A DNA stretch of 5,265 nt. It comes from a candidate division NC10 bacterium CSP1-5. GTDB taxonomy: Bacteria; Methylomirabilota; Methylomirabilia; Methylomirabilales; CSP1-5. Position 1 is the stretch's first letter. Every line of letters begins with the position of its first letter. The translations under genes were made by a program, and so were the position numbers. Positions 1 to 5,265 of this stretch are shown here, in pieces. The stretch is taken from assembly GCA_001443495.1 (NCBI GenBank), contig LDXR01000038.1, positions 1-5,265 on the forward strand. The letters run 5' to 3'. A model generated the notes under the pieces. The model was not told the origin of the DNA and did not search any database. It was given only the letters and a program-made list of their open reading frames with translations.

Positions 1-63
1 TTTTCCGAAAGCCAGTTCAAGACCCTCAAGTACCAACCCCAGTTCCCGCATCGCTTTGACTCC
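1..63 (+). pseudogene. Fragment of an IS3-type transposase (rve domain, around the catalytic Glu), truncated by the element
   Basis: Frame 1 reads 21 codons from the window edge with no stop. They contain SESQFKTLKYQPQFP followed by HRFDS. I recognise this as the part of IS3-like integrase-core transposases usually written 'SEAQFKTLKYRPDFPxRFGS', in which the Glu of the SE pair (codon 3 here) is the third catalytic DDE residue. In the family the next residues are of the type 'EDARAFCRxFFxWYN', but here the similarity stops after the Ser at 61-63 and the next bases are the TGTA end of the large element. The frame then reaches a stop within the left terminal repeat. The gene is therefore broken at 63/64. 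Its upstream part lies outside the window and its 3' part is not seen on the other side of the element. Family assignment is from memory of the motif. Confidence 0.7.
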
Positions 64-127
64 TGTAATCCTCCCCGTAATTCTTGCATCGAAAATCGCT
101 GAAATAGGTAGAGGAAATCCTCCTCCC
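64..127 (+). repeat. Left terminal inverted repeat
   Basis: Three blocks recur, inverted, at the right end: AATTCTTGCA (79-88), ATAGGT (104-109) and CTCCTCCC (120-127). Blocks 1 and 2 are exactly 15 bp apart at both ends; blocks 2 and 3 are 10 bp apart here and 9 bp on the right. The outer end is TGTA at 64-67. An 8-bp direct repeat AATCCTCC occurs at 67-74 and 116-123. The blocks probably bind one of the transposases. They also lie just upstream of the first gene, so promoter activity is possible, but no convincing -35/-10 pair stands out. Confidence 0.8.
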
Positions 128-148
128 CAACTGGCGGAGACCCCGCCT

Positions 149-160
149 GGAGGGAGGAAG
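149..160 (+). promoter_or_regulatory. Shine-Dalgarno sequence for the first transposase gene
   Basis: GGAGGGAGGAAG lies directly upstream of the ATG at 162. The first GGAGG (149-153) leaves 8 nt to the start, which is near ideal, and this fixes the start at 162. Just upstream, GGCGG (133-137) and CCGCC (143-147) can form a small 5-bp hairpin with a 5-nt loop; whether it affects translation is unknown. Confidence 0.75.
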
Positions 161-161
161 T

Positions 162-1907
162 ATGTTGGACAGAGTGGTAACACAGGAATCGTCGCAGGAG
201 GCTGGTGGCAGCGCAACTCGGGATGCTCTGGACGGGCGGTCGCCGCCTGAAGCGCGCTACGGGACCCAGGGGGTGGCCCAGCCGGCGGGCGGTACACCCG
301 CCGAGCCGGCAGGTCAACCAGTCGCCGCACCGGTTTCCGCCCGGACAACCGTCTCGAACCTGAGTCCAGGTGGGGCGACCCAGCCTAGCCAGGCGCAGGA
401 GACAGGCGAGGAGGCTGGGGCTGGACGGGACCCGGAAGGGGAACCGATCCGTGTGCCCCCGCTGGCGGGGAGAAGCAAACAGCGTCGCCTGGTACGCAAG
501 ACCGAGGACCAGAAGAAGCAACCGTGGATTGGTCCCGAACAGCGCCTCTTATTACTCGATACCTGGCGGCGCAGCGGCCTACCGGCCGGCGACTTCGCTG
601 CTCTGGTCGGAATCTCCAAGCACACCCTGTATGGCTGGCACCGCCGGTTCCTGGCCGAAGGTCCCGCAGGATTGGTGGAACACCGCCGGGGCGGGCCGAA
701 GGGGAGTAAACTCCCGGACCTCACCCAGCGAACCATCCTGATGCTCAAGTCTTCGCATCCGGACTGGGGTTGTGAACGAATCAGTGACATGCTCTGGCGA
801 GGACCGGCGTTACCCGCCAGTCCTTCGGCGGTCGCCCGTGTGCTGCACGAAGCGGGTTATGAGCTGGAAGAGACTCCCACCCGGCCGCACCCTCCCACCG
901 TCCGCCGCTTCGAACGGGCCAAGCCCAACGAGCTCTGGCAGACCGACCTATTCACCTTCCTGCTCAAACGGCAGAACCGCCGCGTCTACCTGGTCGCCTT
1001 CATGGACGACCACTCGCGGTTCATCACCAGCTATGGGCTCCATGCCACCCAGTCGGCCGCACTGGTGATCGAGGTATTGCGAGCCGGCATTACGGCTTAT
1101 GGTGTTCCCCAGGAGATCCTGACCGACAACGGTGCGCAGTATGTCACCTGGCGGGGCAAGAGTGCGTTCACCAAGGAGTTGGAGAAGCGTGGCATCCGCC
1201 AGATCGTGGCCAGTCCACGCCGTCCCCAGACGCTGGGCAAGATCGAACGATTCTGGGGAACGCTGTGGCGTGAGTTTCTGGAGACGGCCATCTTCCTGGA
1301 CCTGGAGGATGCGCGGCGGAGGGTCGGTTGGTTCATGGACTATTACAATTTTCGCCGAACGCATGAAGGGATAGAGGGGCTGGTGCCTGCCGACCGGTTC
1401 TTCGGCGCGGCCCCCGACGTGCTGCGCACGCTCGAGGCTCGGGTGGCAGAGAACGCGCTGGAGCTGGCGCGCAGCGGGGTGCCGAAGCGGCCGTTCTATC
1501 TGACCGGTCAGGTGGGTGGTAAATCGTTCAGCATCCACGCGGCGGGTGAGCGGGTCATCCTGACAGACGGCAGTGGGAACCAGCAGGAGATCGACCTGGC
1601 GGGGCCGAACCAGGCAACGAGCGGGTCTGCGACCGGCAGCGCAGGCGAGCCGCCTGCACCACGGGGAAATGCAGCGCCGCAGCAGGAAGCGGCGGTGGTC
1701 GCCGAGCCTCTGGCTACACCCACGGAGCCGGACGTGTCCGCCGAGTGGCCGCAGGTGTTGTGTCCGGACGGCTCACCGCCGGAAGGATTGACCGAGAGTT
1801 CCAGTGCCGAGCCGCCGGCGCCTGGGGTCTCGCCGCTCGATGAGGCGATGCGGCAGATCGGCCAATCGATCGGCGGGAACGCAGGTACCGAAGGAGGTGC
1901 CCTATGA
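162..1907 (+). CDS. DDE integrase/transposase 1 (HTH plus rve core), 581 aa
   Basis: This is a transposase of the retroviral-integrase (rve) superfamily that would catalyse strand cleavage and transfer at the element's ends. Order of parts: a long Gly/Pro/Ala/Gln-rich, probably disordered N-terminus (residues 1-105); a basic patch (105-120); a helix-turn-helix (about 127-162, ending ISKHTLYGWHRRF); a second HTH-like segment (about 185-233); and the rve core (about 253-410). Catalytic residues read as D262 (WQTDLF), D322 (LTDNGAQY) and E362 (TLGKIERFWG), a D-40-E spacing, slightly longer than the common D-35-E. A small beta-rich domain follows (about 440-480), then another Pro/Ala/Gly-rich tail to 581. 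Without the two tails it has the size of IS481-like transposases. The stop overlaps the next start as ATGA, suggesting translational coupling. The triad looks intact, so the enzyme may be active. Confidence 0.9.
   Translation: MLDRVVTQESSQEAGGSATRDALDGRSPPEARYGTQGVAQPAGGTPAEPAGQPVAAPVSARTTVSNLSPGGATQPSQAQETGEEAGAGRDPEGEPIRVPPLAGRSKQRRLVRKTEDQKKQPWIGPEQRLLLLDTWRRSGLPAGDFAALVGISKHTLYGWHRRFLAEGPAGLVEHRRGGPKGSKLPDLTQRTILMLKSSHPDWGCERISDMLWRGPALPASPSAVARVLHEAGYELEETPTRPHPPTVRRFERAKPNELWQTDLFTFLLKRQNRRVYLVAFMDDHSRFITSYGLHATQSAALVIEVLRAGITAYGVPQEILTDNGAQYVTWRGKSAFTKELEKRGIRQIVASPRRPQTLGKIERFWGTLWREFLETAIFLDLEDARRRVGWFMDYYNFRRTHEGIEGLVPADRFFGAAPDVLRTLEARVAENALELARSGVPKRPFYLTGQVGGKSFSIHAAGERVILTDGSGNQQEIDLAGPNQATSGSATGSAGEPPAPRGNAAPQQEAAVVAEPLATPTEPDVSAEWPQVLCPDGSPPEGLTESSSAEPPAPGVSPLDEAMRQIGQSIGGNAGTEGGAL
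1891..1899 (+). promoter_or_regulatory. Strong Shine-Dalgarno for the second gene, inside the end of the first
   Basis: AAGGAGGTG is a near-perfect anti-16S match. It lies in the last codons of the upstream transposase, 4 nt before the ATG at 1904. Together with the ATGA overlap it fixes the start of the downstream gene and predicts its own strong initiation as well as coupling. Confidence 0.8.
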
Positions 1908-2584
1908 ACCAGGTTCCTACCGAGCGGGGCAAATCGAGTCACCGTGCCAGTCCAAGAGTAGCACCGCCGGGCGGTAGCCCGGCGTCGCCACAGGTTGCGT
2001 GCCGCAACGGCAAGCCGCCTTTGGGACTGAAGAGCCCGGTAGCCAGTCTGGAGGCCAAGCGGATTGCGGCCTTGGTGCTGGAAGTGCTGGCCGGGACGCG
2101 CACCCCGGCGGAGGCGGCCGCGTCCCTCGAGGTATCCCTGCCGCGGTACTACCAGCTCGAGGGCCGGGCGTTCCAGGGACTGGTCGCCGCCTGCGAGCCG
2201 CTGCCGCACGGACGGCACAGTACCCCCGACCGGCAGGTGATCACTCTGCGGCGGGAGTTGGAACGCCTGAAGCGGGATCATGCCCGCCACCAGACGCTGG
2301 TGCGAGCCGCCCAGCGGACCCTCGGGCTATCGGCACCGGAGAAGCCGGTGAAGACGAGCAAGACCGGGCCGAACGGCAAGCCCAAACGGCTGCGTCGTCC
2401 CACAGCCCGGGCGCTCAAGGCCGTTCGATCCCTTCGCTCAGCCCTGGCCGAGGCCCCTGCCGATCCGGCTGGCCCGGCCGCCCCAGCGGCGGATGCATCG
2501 CAACAAGGAGCACGATCCGCAGGATCGTCGGAACCCTTGGCGAATTCCGAAGGCTTGGAGTTCTTGAACGGCGATATGCCGTAG
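1904..2584 (+). CDS. HTH/coiled-coil transposon accessory protein B, 226 aa
   Basis: Probably a DNA-binding partner of the adjacent transposase; no enzymatic motif is visible. After a disordered start (1-45), residues about 50-90 look like a helix-turn-helix (LVLEVLAGTRTPAEAAASLE followed by VSLPRYYQLEGRAF). A charged helix rich in Leu and Arg then spans about 108-138 (VITLRRELERLKRDHARHQT), likely a coiled coil for dimerisation. A basic linker follows (about 147-180, many Lys/Arg) and an Ala/Pro-rich tail. The same order of parts recurs in the gene at 3092, with several identical stretches, so the two are probably distant paralogues. It overlaps the upstream transposase by ATGA. Planctomycete genomes have proteins of this type beside rve integrases, in my recollection, but no function is established. 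A role in end recognition or assembly of the transposase complex is inference. Confidence 0.78.
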   Translation: MNQVPTERGKSSHRASPRVAPPGGSPASPQVACRNGKPPLGLKSPVASLEAKRIAALVLEVLAGTRTPAEAAASLEVSLPRYYQLEGRAFQGLVAACEPLPHGRHSTPDRQVITLRRELERLKRDHARHQTLVRAAQRTLGLSAPEKPVKTSKTGPNGKPKRLRRPTARALKAVRSLRSALAEAPADPAGPAAPAADASQQGARSAGSSEPLANSEGLEFLNGDMP

Positions 2585-2598
2585 TTTGCCTTCCCGTT

Positions 2599-2626
2599 CC
2601 GTTCCCCCCGCAGAGTGGGGGAACGG
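2599..2626 (+). terminator. GC-rich hairpin after gene B: possible attenuator or RNA stability element
   Basis: CCGTTCCCCC (2599-2608) pairs perfectly with GGGGGAACGG (2617-2626), a 10-bp stem with an 8-nt loop, starting 14 nt after the stop of gene B. No T-run follows, so it is not a standard intrinsic terminator. It could slow polymerase, protect the upstream mRNA or set the ratio of the A-B to C-D gene pairs. The structure is plain in the sequence; its role is inferred. Confidence 0.5.
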
Positions 2627-2711
2627 GGCGGGTGCCGGTGCCTCGGACGTCCCAGGACCCGGCACTCGCCAGCCGGGAATGGCCAGGAGAACCCAGAAAA
2701 AGGCAGGTACC

Positions 2712-3095
2712 ATGAGTCGGCCAGGTTCATCCAATCGCGTCCTGATCGATCCTACGCGGTCGCGCGCACAGTTTCAGCCGATTCCACTGGGATCGGACCT
2801 GGCAACGCATGAGCGGCCCGTGGCGCTGGGGGGCATCGCAACCAGCCGACCCTTGCCCCGGCCGACGACGGGCCAGGCCACTGGCGGAGAAGCAAAGCGT
2901 GCTTGGCAAAAAAGAAAACCAAAGAGCTGCGATGTACCATCCGGCTCGGTACGCTGGATCGTACCCGAACGCACCTCGAACACAGAAGGGGCTAGCCTGG
3001 GTCCAGGGGCGGCAATGAGCACCCTGGTCGCGAGCAGGGATGCGCGCGAAATCGGGCCAGGGATGGTTCTGCAAACTACGAGGACGCATCCATGA
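2712..3095 (+). CDS. Possible hypothetical protein, 127 aa
   Basis: An ATG at 2712, preceded by a modest purine stretch (AGGCAGG, 2701-2707), opens a 127-codon frame. Its TGA overlaps the ATG of the next gene as ATGA, the same junction seen between the first two genes; this is the main argument that it is translated. The same frame is open upstream to a TTG at 2586, so the start is uncertain. I do not recognise the product. It is hydrophilic, rich in Arg, Pro, Gly and Ser, with a basic stretch near residue 65-75 (KRAWQKRKPKS), and has no membrane segment, clear HTH or catalytic motif. Codon use does not mark it strongly as coding, and competing frames are open too. It might be only a leader reading frame that couples translation into gene C. 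Confidence 0.35.
   Translation: MSRPGSSNRVLIDPTRSRAQFQPIPLGSDLATHERPVALGGIATSRPLPRPTTGQATGGEAKRAWQKRKPKSCDVPSGSVRWIVPERTSNTEGASLGPGAAMSTLVASRDAREIGPGMVLQTTRTHP
3080..3084 (+). promoter_or_regulatory. Shine-Dalgarno for gene C
   Basis: GAGGA sits 7 nt before the ATG at 3092 and supports that start over later alternatives. Confidence 0.5.
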
Positions 3096-3565
3096 ACCGA
3101 GGTCGCCCTTCGCTGGGACCCAAGATCGTTCAGCACCTCGACGGACCGGCCGAGACCAGAGGCCGGCTCGAGACCCTGCTCCAGACACTGGCCGGCCAGT
3201 GCTCCGTCCAGGACGCCTGTGAAAGGCTCGGCATCAGCCAGGCCCGCTTCCACGAACTACGCAACTCCATGCTTCAGGCGGCCCTGGCCAACCTCGAACC
3301 GCGGCCCGCCGGGCGACCCGCTGCCGTCCCCGACCAGACCACCCAACGCATCGCCGAACTCGAACGCCAAGTGCAGGACCTCCGCATCCATTTGCACGCC
3401 GCTCAGCTCCGCGAGGAGATCGCCCTGGCCATGCCCCACTTGCTCCGCCCTCGTGATTCCACGCTAAAAAAAACTCCACCTCGGACCCGCCCGGCCAAAC
3501 GCCGACGCCGGCACGAACCCCTTACTCCGCCACCCCTCTCCAGCGACAGGAGATGCGACACGTGA
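3092..3565 (+). CDS. HTH/coiled-coil transposon accessory protein C (OrfA-like), 157 aa
   Basis: This is a small DNA-binding protein analogous in layout to OrfA of IS3-type elements. Residues about 25-60 form a helix-turn-helix (GQCSVQDACERLGISQARFH); residues about 82-112 form a charged Leu-containing helix (RIAELERQVQDLRIHLHAAQ) suited to a coiled coil. A basic Pro/Arg-rich tail follows (about 126-141, TRPAKRRRRH). It resembles gene B: both run HTH, then a 'EPxPxGR' linker, then coiled coil. An A8 run falls at codons 125-128 and could shift ribosomes into the -1 frame, which is the frame of the downstream transposase. The stop overlaps the downstream GTG start as GTGA. Its start overlaps the preceding open frame as ATGA. 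Binding of the element's ends, or regulation of the transposase, is inferred from the IS3 analogy. Confidence 0.75.
   Translation: MNRGRPSLGPKIVQHLDGPAETRGRLETLLQTLAGQCSVQDACERLGISQARFHELRNSMLQAALANLEPRPAGRPAAVPDQTTQRIAELERQVQDLRIHLHAAQLREEIALAMPHLLRPRDSTLKKTPPRTRPAKRRRRHEPLTPPPLSSDRRCDT
3466..3473 (+). promoter_or_regulatory. Candidate -1 frameshift site (A8) joining gene C to transposase D
   Basis: Eight consecutive A residues. In gene C's frame the codons are CTA AAA AAA ACT, so A AAA AAA is correctly phased for -1 slippage. The -1 frame is that of the downstream transposase. It has a TGA at 3454-3456, 9 nt before the run, and then stays open through 3472-4833. Slippage would give a 581-residue fusion: 127 residues of protein C (HTH and coiled coil) plus 454 of the transposase frame. 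A GC-rich stretch follows, with a possible 5-bp stem 3491-3495/3507-3511; no strong stimulatory structure is certain. Transcriptional slippage on A8 is an alternative. Confidence 0.55.
3548..3552 (+). promoter_or_regulatory. Shine-Dalgarno selecting the GTG start of transposase D
   Basis: AGGAG abuts the ATG at 3553 with no spacer, which is too close for initiation there, but lies 9 nt before an in-frame GTG at 3562. That GTG overlaps the stop of gene C as GTGA. The GTG is therefore the better start for separate translation of the transposase. Confidence 0.6.
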
Positions 3566-4836
3566 ACCGTCTACGCCACATCTGGAAGCTCGAAGTCGAA
3601 CCGCGCCCCTACCGCTTGGTACGACCAGGGCTGGCCACCCAGCGAACCCACCGAACCGTCGAACGCAACCTGCGCATCGCCGTCATCGCCTTCCGACGCT
3701 GGACCAAACGGCTCGGACTGCCACGCCAATCTGCCGCCAACCACCTCGGCCTCTCCACCCGCACTCTCGCCTACTGGGAACATCACTGGAACACCGACCG
3801 CATCCGGGTCATCCCTCGCGGCAGACCCCTCGAACGCTCCGACCGACTCATCCGAAACTCCGTCATCGACACCATCCACAGCCTCGGACCCTGGATCGGA
3901 GTCCCTACACTCGAACACTTCTTCCCCTTGGAACCGCGCAGACAACTGGAGAACCTGCTCGCCCGCTTCCGGCGCGTTTATCAAGAAAAACACCAGGTGC
4001 TCGTGCACATCCTACACTGGCATCGGCCTGGGACCGTCTGGGCCATCGACTACACCGACCCGCCCACACCTATCGACCGCCTCTATCCCCACATCCTCGC
4101 CGTGCGAGACCTCGCCAGCGGCTTCCAACTGCTCGCTCTCCCCGCCCCCGACCAATCCGCCCAAACCACCTGCGACGCACTCACCGCACTGTTCCGCCAA
4201 CACGGCCGGCCCCTCGTCCTCAAGTCTGACAATGGCTCCGCTTTCATCTCGGAACAAACCGAACAGCTCCTCTGCGACTCGCAGGTGTCCTCACTCTTCT
4301 CCCCGCCGTGCACCCCTGGCTACAATGGCGCCTGCGAGGCGGGCATCGGTTCGCTCAAGACACACGCCCATCACCACGCCGCCCGCCATGGCCGTCCCGG
4401 AGAGTGGACTTGTGACGACGTCGAAACCGCTCGACTGCTGGCCAACGCCACCGCCCGACCCTGGGGATTCAACGCTCCCACACCCCAGGTCGCCTGGAAG
4501 CACCACTCGCCAGTCTCCCCGGAAGACCGACTCCTGTTCCGCCAGACTCTCGACGCCTTCCGCGTCGAAGCCCGCGCTGAACATCAGGCCGACCTCGAGC
4601 GTAAGGTCATCGAGAGTCTTTCAAGGCAGGAGCAACCGAACTCAAACGCCGAGGGGCCGCGGCCTGCTCGCGCAGGCCCCGACCCCTCGGGGTTCGTCCC
4701 CACAAACCACTATGACAAGGCACTCATCGATCGTGTTGCTGTTCGCCGTACGCTCGTCGCGCACGGCTTGTTGTCGTTCACCGGGAGGAGAATTACTCCA
4801 CCTATTAAACCGCGAAAAGTTGCAAGAATTGCATAG
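3562..4836 (+). CDS. DDE integrase/transposase 2 (OrfB-like), 424 aa from GTG
   Basis: This is the element's second rve-fold transposase, clearly different in sequence from the first. Numbering from the GTG: an N-terminal helix-turn-helix lies at about 41-77 (ending GLSTRTLAYWEHHW); a helical linker with a basic region follows to about 150; the catalytic core runs from about 155 to 310. The triad reads D163 (VWAIDYTDPP), D223 (LKSDNGSAF) and E259 (YNGACEAGIGSLK), a D-35-E spacing typical of IS3/IS481-like enzymes. A helical segment (about 315-355) and a variable tail follow. The tail is partly encoded by a 42-nt palindrome (4649-4690) and then by the right terminal repeat, in which the gene stops. 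An ATG at 3553 would add three residues but has no usable ribosome-binding spacing. The gene may also be expressed as a frameshift fusion with gene C. The motifs look intact. Confidence 0.88.
   Translation: MNRLRHIWKLEVEPRPYRLVRPGLATQRTHRTVERNLRIAVIAFRRWTKRLGLPRQSAANHLGLSTRTLAYWEHHWNTDRIRVIPRGRPLERSDRLIRNSVIDTIHSLGPWIGVPTLEHFFPLEPRRQLENLLARFRRVYQEKHQVLVHILHWHRPGTVWAIDYTDPPTPIDRLYPHILAVRDLASGFQLLALPAPDQSAQTTCDALTALFRQHGRPLVLKSDNGSAFISEQTEQLLCDSQVSSLFSPPCTPGYNGACEAGIGSLKTHAHHHAARHGRPGEWTCDDVETARLLANATARPWGFNAPTPQVAWKHHSPVSPEDRLLFRQTLDAFRVEARAEHQADLERKVIESLSRQEQPNSNAEGPRPARAGPDPSGFVPTNHYDKALIDRVAVRRTLVAHGLLSFTGRRITPPIKPRKVARIA
4649..4690. repeat. 42-nt interrupted palindrome inside the transposase 2 gene
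   Basis: Outer arms CCGAGGGG (4649-4656) and CCCCTCGG (4683-4690) and inner arms GGCCTGC (4661-4667) and GCAGGCC (4672-4678) are all perfectly paired, with a 4-nt loop (TCGC) and a 4x4 internal mismatch. It lies in frame after the catalytic domain and encodes a Pro/Gly/Arg-rich linker. The shape resembles a REP-type or other small palindromic repeat inserted into coding sequence, but copies elsewhere cannot be seen from this window. Confidence 0.6.
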
Positions 4837-4844
4837 GGGGTACA
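4783..4844 (-). repeat. Right terminal inverted repeat
   Basis: Read on the minus strand from 4844 inward: TGTA, then AATTCTTGCA (4830-4821), ATAGGT (4805-4800) and CTCCTCCC (4790-4783). The 15-bp spacing between the first two blocks equals that of the left end. Blocks 1, 2 and 3 match the left repeat at 10/10, 6/6 and 8/8 positions; sequence between blocks is mostly diverged. The repeat overlaps the last 18 codons of the transposase 2 gene, including its TAG stop. Confidence 0.8.
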
Positions 4845-5265
4845 GCCGATCCGATCGTGTTCACGTCAGACCGGGACGACACGGCGGGGGGCGACACGAA
4901 CAACAACGCGGCGGGGAGCGCTCCGTTCAACAGCAGTTGGGAACGGATCGAGTTCACGGGTACGAGTACGGGAAGTGTGCTGGACCACGTCGAGGTGCGG
5001 TACGGCGGGGCCAATTCGCTGGGCCAGGTGTTCGTGAACGGCGGCGAACTGACGCTGTCGAACAGCGTGCTGGGGAATTCGAGTTCGGCTGGCCTGCGCA
5101 TCGCCGCGAGCGACCCCGCGGTGACCTGGACCACGTTCCAGGCGAACACGGGCGCCGCGGTGAGCATGGACCTGGAGTCGAACCCGGCGATCAGCGGCGT
5201 GACGTTGGTGAACAATGGTACCAATGGCCTTGTGCTCGACACCGGCTTGCTGGTCGAGGATGGTT
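4845..5265 (+). pseudogene. Right-handed parallel beta-helix surface/secreted protein, 5' end removed by the element; continues past the window
   Basis: The frame starting at GCC 4845 reads 140 codons without a stop to the window edge. It contains ADPIVFTSDRDDTAGGDTNN, WERIEFTGTSTGSVLDHVEV and then RYGG, followed by imperfect rungs such as GELTLSNSVLGNSSSAGLRI, PAVTWTTFQANTGAAVSMDL and PAISGVTLVNNGTNGLVLDT. These short Asn/Gly/Ser/Thr-rich repeats, about 22 residues each, are typical of beta-helix proteins that are exported and attached to the surface; large paralogous sets occur in planctomycetes. The frame runs back into the element only to a TAA at 4806 and has no ATG, signal peptide or ribosome-binding site, so the 5' part of the gene is missing here. 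The protein is probably not made from this copy unless transcription and translation run in from the element. Confidence 0.75.

Follow-up and report, generated by a model that had tools for sequence, protein, structure and literature searches.

A transposon family of several bacterial phyla that encodes two different DDE transposases

To our knowledge, the known bacterial DDE elements use one DDE enzyme, at times assisted by an ATPase or by a nuclease encoded separately. For a 5,265-bp stretch of DNA (here called the window, analysed at its full length), an original prediction made from the letters alone described two complete D-D-E triads in separate genes, accompanied by two accessory HTH/coiled-coil proteins and enclosed by a single pair of terminal repeats. 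This locus raises the question of whether the two enzymes form one transposon and, if so, whether both are used to move it.

The element and its four genes

Positions 64 to 4844 of the window are a transposon with imperfect inverted repeats of about 65 bp (TGT...ACA). Alignment of the two ends, which begin at 64 (TGTAATCC...) and finish at 4844 (...GGGGGTACA), gave a score of 40, whereas none of 500 shuffles scored above their maximum of 32, and a profile built from nine ends placed the termini at the same positions (E values of 4e-10 and 9e-13), in agreement with the single matched pair that had been proposed. Note that the window's own ends were part of the training set; the profile also locates ends at the predicted places in loci outside this set. 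The four open reading frames, listed below with the remaining features, are all located on one strand, occupy positions 162 to 4836, and follow the order DDE1-HTH-HTH-DDE2.

1..63, + strand: left flank with a short open frame (FSESQFKTLKYQPQFPHRFDS)
64..128, + strand: left terminal inverted repeat, from end alignment and profile; terminus TGT, outer box CCCGTAATTC at about 74-83, inner box AGGTAGAGGAAATCCTCCTCC at about 106-126
162..1907, + strand: DDE1, IS481-like transposase (HTH plus rve) with an extended C-terminal part; triad D262/D322/E362
1904..2584, + strand: P2, IS3-OrfA-like protein with HTH, long helix (coiled coil), and basic tail
2585..3091, + strand: spacer between P2 and P4 without a recognised gene
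3092..3565, + strand: P4, another HTH/coiled-coil protein, paralogous to P2 and likewise IS3-OrfA-like (HTH_Tnp_1/HTH_28)
3553..4836, + strand: DDE2, second, diverged transposase with an integrase-like core; triad D166/D226/E262
4780..4844, - strand: right terminal inverted repeat, in which the outer box lies 1 bp nearer to the terminus than on the left
4845..5265, + strand: right flank with a gene for a beta-helix repeat protein, whose frame is open right at the border

The stop codon of DDE1 is overlapped by the start of P2 (ATGA at 1904), the start of DDE2 overlaps the end of P4 (3553-3565), and the stop codon of DDE2 lies inside the right terminal repeat, while P2 and P4 are separated by the spacer of about 500 bp. 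At the other loci the element measures 2.9 to 4.8 kb, which leaves space for three to four genes only.

Both predicted triads were located, and both DDE reading frames matched the rve domain of Pfam (E values of 5e-18 for DDE1 and 3e-11 for DDE2). The DDE1 residues stood as predicted; the positions given for DDE2 (163/223/259) count from a GTG at 3562 and correspond to D166/D226/E262 if the ATG at 3553 is taken as the start. DDE1 of the window matched the NCBIfam IS481 model NF033577 over the whole HTH-rve length (E value of 1.6e-64) with 218.2 bits, the curated cut-off being 224, and this model was matched by all 16 DDE1 members (best E value of 2e-68). DDE2 remained far under the same cut-off with 50.7 bits; its top NCBIfam match was IS3 (E value of 2e-15), again far under the cut-off. 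Specifically, the curated IS3 model, which requires 160 bits, was passed neither by DDE1 (127.6 bits) nor by DDE2 (56.9 bits). The structure model of DDE2 (pLDDT of 85) features an integrase core, with the integrases of PFV and RSV as best PDB matches.

The two accessory proteins proved to be P2 and P4, paralogues (hhalign E value of 4.5e-21) with an OrfA-like HTH; the IS3 OrfA-type domain HTH_Tnp_1 was detected in 7 of 23 P2 and 10 of 22 P4 sequences. The P2 model displays a long helix after the HTH, and the basic tail is seen in the alignment. As anticipated, no gene for an ATPase or a resolvase, nor one for a TnsA-like protein, was found in the unit, with no match to an ATPase or resolvase model of Pfam or NCBIfam.

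Just 5′ of DDE1, an inverted repeat (CTCCTCCCC...GGGAGGA, within window positions 110-165) could mask the ribosome-binding site, and comparable upstream pairing is visible at the same position in L011 and L012. Judged from the sequence, this repeat suggests that DDE1 might be under translational control.

The window comprises the entire contig C38 of a 2.77-Mb genome in 40 contigs, and the genome bin that includes this contig shares its genus with a metagenome-assembled genome (MAG) of Methylomirabilota. The left-flank frame (1-63) resembles the end or a fragment of an IS3-type transposase, without confirmation by Pfam, and the beta-helix repeat gene on the right is, as we take it, of a type associated with planctomycetes. 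A contig of only 5,265 bp, a Methylomirabilota-type bin, and a planctomycete-associated flank gene leave it in doubt which organism actually hosts this copy.

Recurrence of the unit across phyla

The original prediction had named the recurrence of the four genes in the same order between conserved ends as support for a single transposon, and gene pairs occurring alone with their own complete ends as its refutation. Several such copies were found. More than 20 loci share the DDE1-HTH-HTH-DDE2 order, and they come from Planctomycetota, Methylomirabilota, and a Deltaproteobacteria-type phylum (L011, L012, L013, L046-L048, L050-L059, L061, L064, L110, and L114-L116), and four-gene profiles recovered the complete order in most sufficiently long loci. 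The expected planctomycete members thus exist, but the family is not purely planctomycete. The Methylomirabilota MAG of the window's genus carries the identical four-gene order (L012, the same locus as L005), as does a divergent Deltaproteobacteria MAG (L013), from whose phylum a search of 395 genomes added L114-L116. In Planctomycetota, L010 shares the order with L011, its contig beginning inside DDE1. A sister clade has a three-gene form with one HTH protein, DDE1-HTH-DDE2 (L102-L104, L106-L108, and L111-L113).

A search of 392 planctomycete genomes with DDE1 yielded 29 places at E values of ≤1e-100. DDE2 adjoins DDE1 in 27 of these, and the other two are cut off where their contigs stop, within P2 or shortly behind it; lower-scoring DDE1 places belong mainly to the three-gene sister clade and include more four-gene forms. 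DDE2 relatives are present in 36 of the 392 genomes, and places with DDE2 only are truncated fragments. Among the family loci searched, none consisted of a complete gene pair alone between ends of its own. In nine genomes analysed in depth, the DDE1 proteins of the family reach at least 357 bits per main match versus at most 117 bits for the nearest other IS481-like genes. Scans of IMG/VR viral contigs detected no relatives, and plasmids gave generic IS3-like partial matches only, or none.

Movement of the whole unit is indicated by a planctomycete genome (G275) with two copies of 4,286 bp on different contigs and at different sites. They differ by 2 mismatches (99.95% identity), and the identity begins and ends exactly at TGT...ACA, enclosing all four genes. 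Similarly, L010, L011, and L017 have a common right end, beyond which the sequences differ. That two unrelated insertion sequences, nested or adjacent, were merely caught in one window could be read from the resemblance of the halves to separate IS3/IS481-type modules and from the 500-bp spacer between them, but such a chance arrangement is at odds with the gene order, strand, and ends that more than 20 divergent loci have in common, with the near-identical whole-unit copies, with the matched divergence of the two enzymes (see below), and with the failure to find separate ends or solo pairs. For the family, independent insertions are refuted by the recurrent order and the whole-unit copies, and for the window, too, we consider this reading scarcely tenable. 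We are close to certain that there is a transposon family with two DDE transposases which is conserved, mobile, and distributed across phyla; the group is widespread and apparently has not been described before.

Some copies are incomplete. In L012, no right end was found, and its expected place directly past DDE2 (4600-5359) is occupied by a small antisense gene which, by eye, resembles a REP-associated IS200-type transposase. A decaying copy at the end of a 1.1-Mb contig (L117, 1965-5177 of G343:C2) contains frameshifts and stop codons, all four genes being recognisable. Contigs that start or stop exactly at the element terminus (L046 at 1, L050 at 4050, and L114 at the contig end) are what would be expected if assemblies break at multicopy elements.

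Comparison with known systems

DDE1 is IS481-like across its whole HTH-rve length, and the TGT...ACA ends of the window element are those of the eukaryotic IS481EU elements (PMC10045372). Autonomous IS481EU families encode a single transposase, and duplications in the IS481 family range from 2 to 15 bp, mostly 6 bp (PMC10045372). In contrast, the element described here encodes a second DDE enzyme plus one or two OrfA-like proteins. Duplications were not seen, although its flanks are possibly rearranged. The match of P2 and P4 to the OrfA-type HTH_Tnp_1 domain links it to the IS3 family. IS3 elements have one OrfA/OrfB pair, fused through frameshifting, whereas here two OrfA-like and two DDE proteins are encoded by separate overlapping genes. 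Duplications of IS3 elements are 3 to 5 bp long (PMC10045372). With retroviral integrases, DDE2 shares the integrase core fold of its model; retroviruses have a single integrase protein, however, and the two-DDE element has two distinct proteins. Tn7, Tn5053, and IS21-type elements combine one DDE enzyme with an ATPase, to which Tn7 adds a restriction-type nuclease. The two-DDE element is inferred to resemble these in requiring more than one protein for movement but differs in that no ATPase, TnsA-like, or resolvase genes were found.

No bacterial element with two DDE enzymes was found in the open-access full-text literature, ISfinder and closed-access papers being outside the scope of this search. 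The layout thus matches no described family that we found, and its novelty is provisional. At present, annotation would list such a locus as two or three transposase genes without any relation to each other, which recognition of the family would improve.

Two conserved triads, the ends, and the insertion joints

In 29 elements, the DDE1 triad is conserved without exception (29/29/29), and that of DDE2 in 28, 29, and 29 cases for D, D, and E, the exception being an Asn in place of the first Asp in L111, which counts against a model with two active enzymes. This conservation persists at mean identities of 0.43 for DDE1 and only 0.26 for DDE2, with pairwise values for DDE2 down to 16%. The dN/dS values of the four genes range from 0.07 to 0.44 in the valid pairwise comparisons, the L010-L011 value for DDE1 being left out due to a frame error. 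Distances of DDE1 and DDE2 are correlated across 29 loci (Mantel r = 0.897, with 0 of 5,000 permutations as high), and also inside the window's own clade (r = 0.564, a value reached by no permutation). The conserved triads, the selection, the correlated distances, and the integrase core of the DDE2 model argue that the two enzymes have long been partners and that both active sites are used, and the earlier suggestion that one of the enzymes might be a passenger is disfavoured by the triads, the purifying selection, and the matched divergence.

We consider it probable that both DDE enzymes are needed together, i.e., that the element is an autonomous transposon with a heteromeric machine using both active sites; this is an inference made without a transposition assay. 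Alternatively, one DDE enzyme alone may move the element, the other being a structural, regulatory, or target-choosing subunit with a retained fold. The far stronger divergence of DDE2 is what might be expected of a specificity subunit, and outer, non-catalysing subunits exist in retroviral intasomes (PMC10045372). A nearly invariant triad at 26% mean identity would nevertheless be unexpected for a non-catalytic subunit, and this alternative appears unlikely to us.

In the window's clade, the ends consist of an outer box (~CCGAAAT) and an inner box (~GGTGGAGGAATNGCCTCCTCC) starting near position 44, and the same two boxes are present at both element ends. On the left, the distance from terminus to outer box exceeds that on the right by 1 bp, the best alignment of the outer region requiring a +1 shift of left against right; this applies to 15 of 15 Planctomycetota and Methylomirabilota elements, which represent every examined element of these phyla with both ends, from both clades and with the window included. 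The offset is also present in the G275 copies, whose ends were set independently by copy divergence. For several of the other loci, the termini rest on the TGT rule and are less independent, and the left end of L104 was shifted 5 bp outward from its initial assignment for consistency. In the Deltaproteobacteria-type clade, the outer-box shift was 0 in 4 of 4 elements; the asymmetry is thus not universal.

Left suffix and right prefix were compared over lengths of 2 to 28 bp in 14 copies of two subfamilies for which both flanks were available, and no convincing identity indicative of a target-site duplication was detected; among these, duplications of 15 and 25 bp, as in IS481EU, were likewise absent, and the G275 copies lacked one even when their flanks were paired crosswise. 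In most copies, the two flanks cannot be put back together as one gene. Consequently, rearrangement may have affected some of the insertions or assemblies, and the missing duplications could be secondary: ordinary short duplications may have been erased by deletions next to the element, by recombination of one copy with another, or by joins made during assembly. We regard such an artefact as a serious possibility, albeit not the likelier case, given that the left and right flanks often lie in different genes (the window, L058, L104, and L108) and many loci are metagenome assemblies, while the complete lack of duplications in 14 copies, the G275 pair included, speaks against it. An empty site for the L058 insertion was not found among 98 relatives. 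Without an empty site to decide, two readings stand side by side: duplication-free joining, or frequent assembly errors or rearrangements next to the element. A palindromic or hairpin target, hinted at by a few flanks, was not significant overall in comparison with joints from the same flanks.

In the proposed mechanism, the two-box ends would be bound by the OrfA-like proteins P2 and P4 together with the HTH domains that DDE1 and DDE2 carry. The bound proteins would assemble a mixed transpososome, and both DDE1 and DDE2 would perform cutting and joining of DNA within it. In the preferred version, one enzyme would serve each element end, which would account for the 1-bp left/right difference, and blunt or otherwise non-staggered joining by two distinct active sites would account for the absent duplications. 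This full version, with two obligate active transposases, one per end, and duplication-free insertion, is put forward tentatively, and it may well not hold; the reaction assigned to each enzyme is inferred. Ranked next is a division by strand, in which one enzyme would perform 3′-end cleavage and strand transfer and the other the second-strand cut at both ends. A precedent is Tn7 with TnsB and TnsA, both triads are conserved, and both proteins could occupy each end since each has the same two boxes; division by strand alone, however, leaves the 1-bp offset and the absent duplications unexplained, and we hold it to be rather improbable. With two distinct DDE enzymes kept together across phyla, the question of how catalytic subunits share cuts and joins becomes testable, and the absent duplications and the 1-bp asymmetry of the ends provide specific, measurable predictions.

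With regard to individual insertion sites, the left border of the L108 copy seemingly cuts a gene resembling a type I restriction-modification M subunit (by eye, without a Pfam match), and an AMOP-like frame is located on the opposite side of the element.
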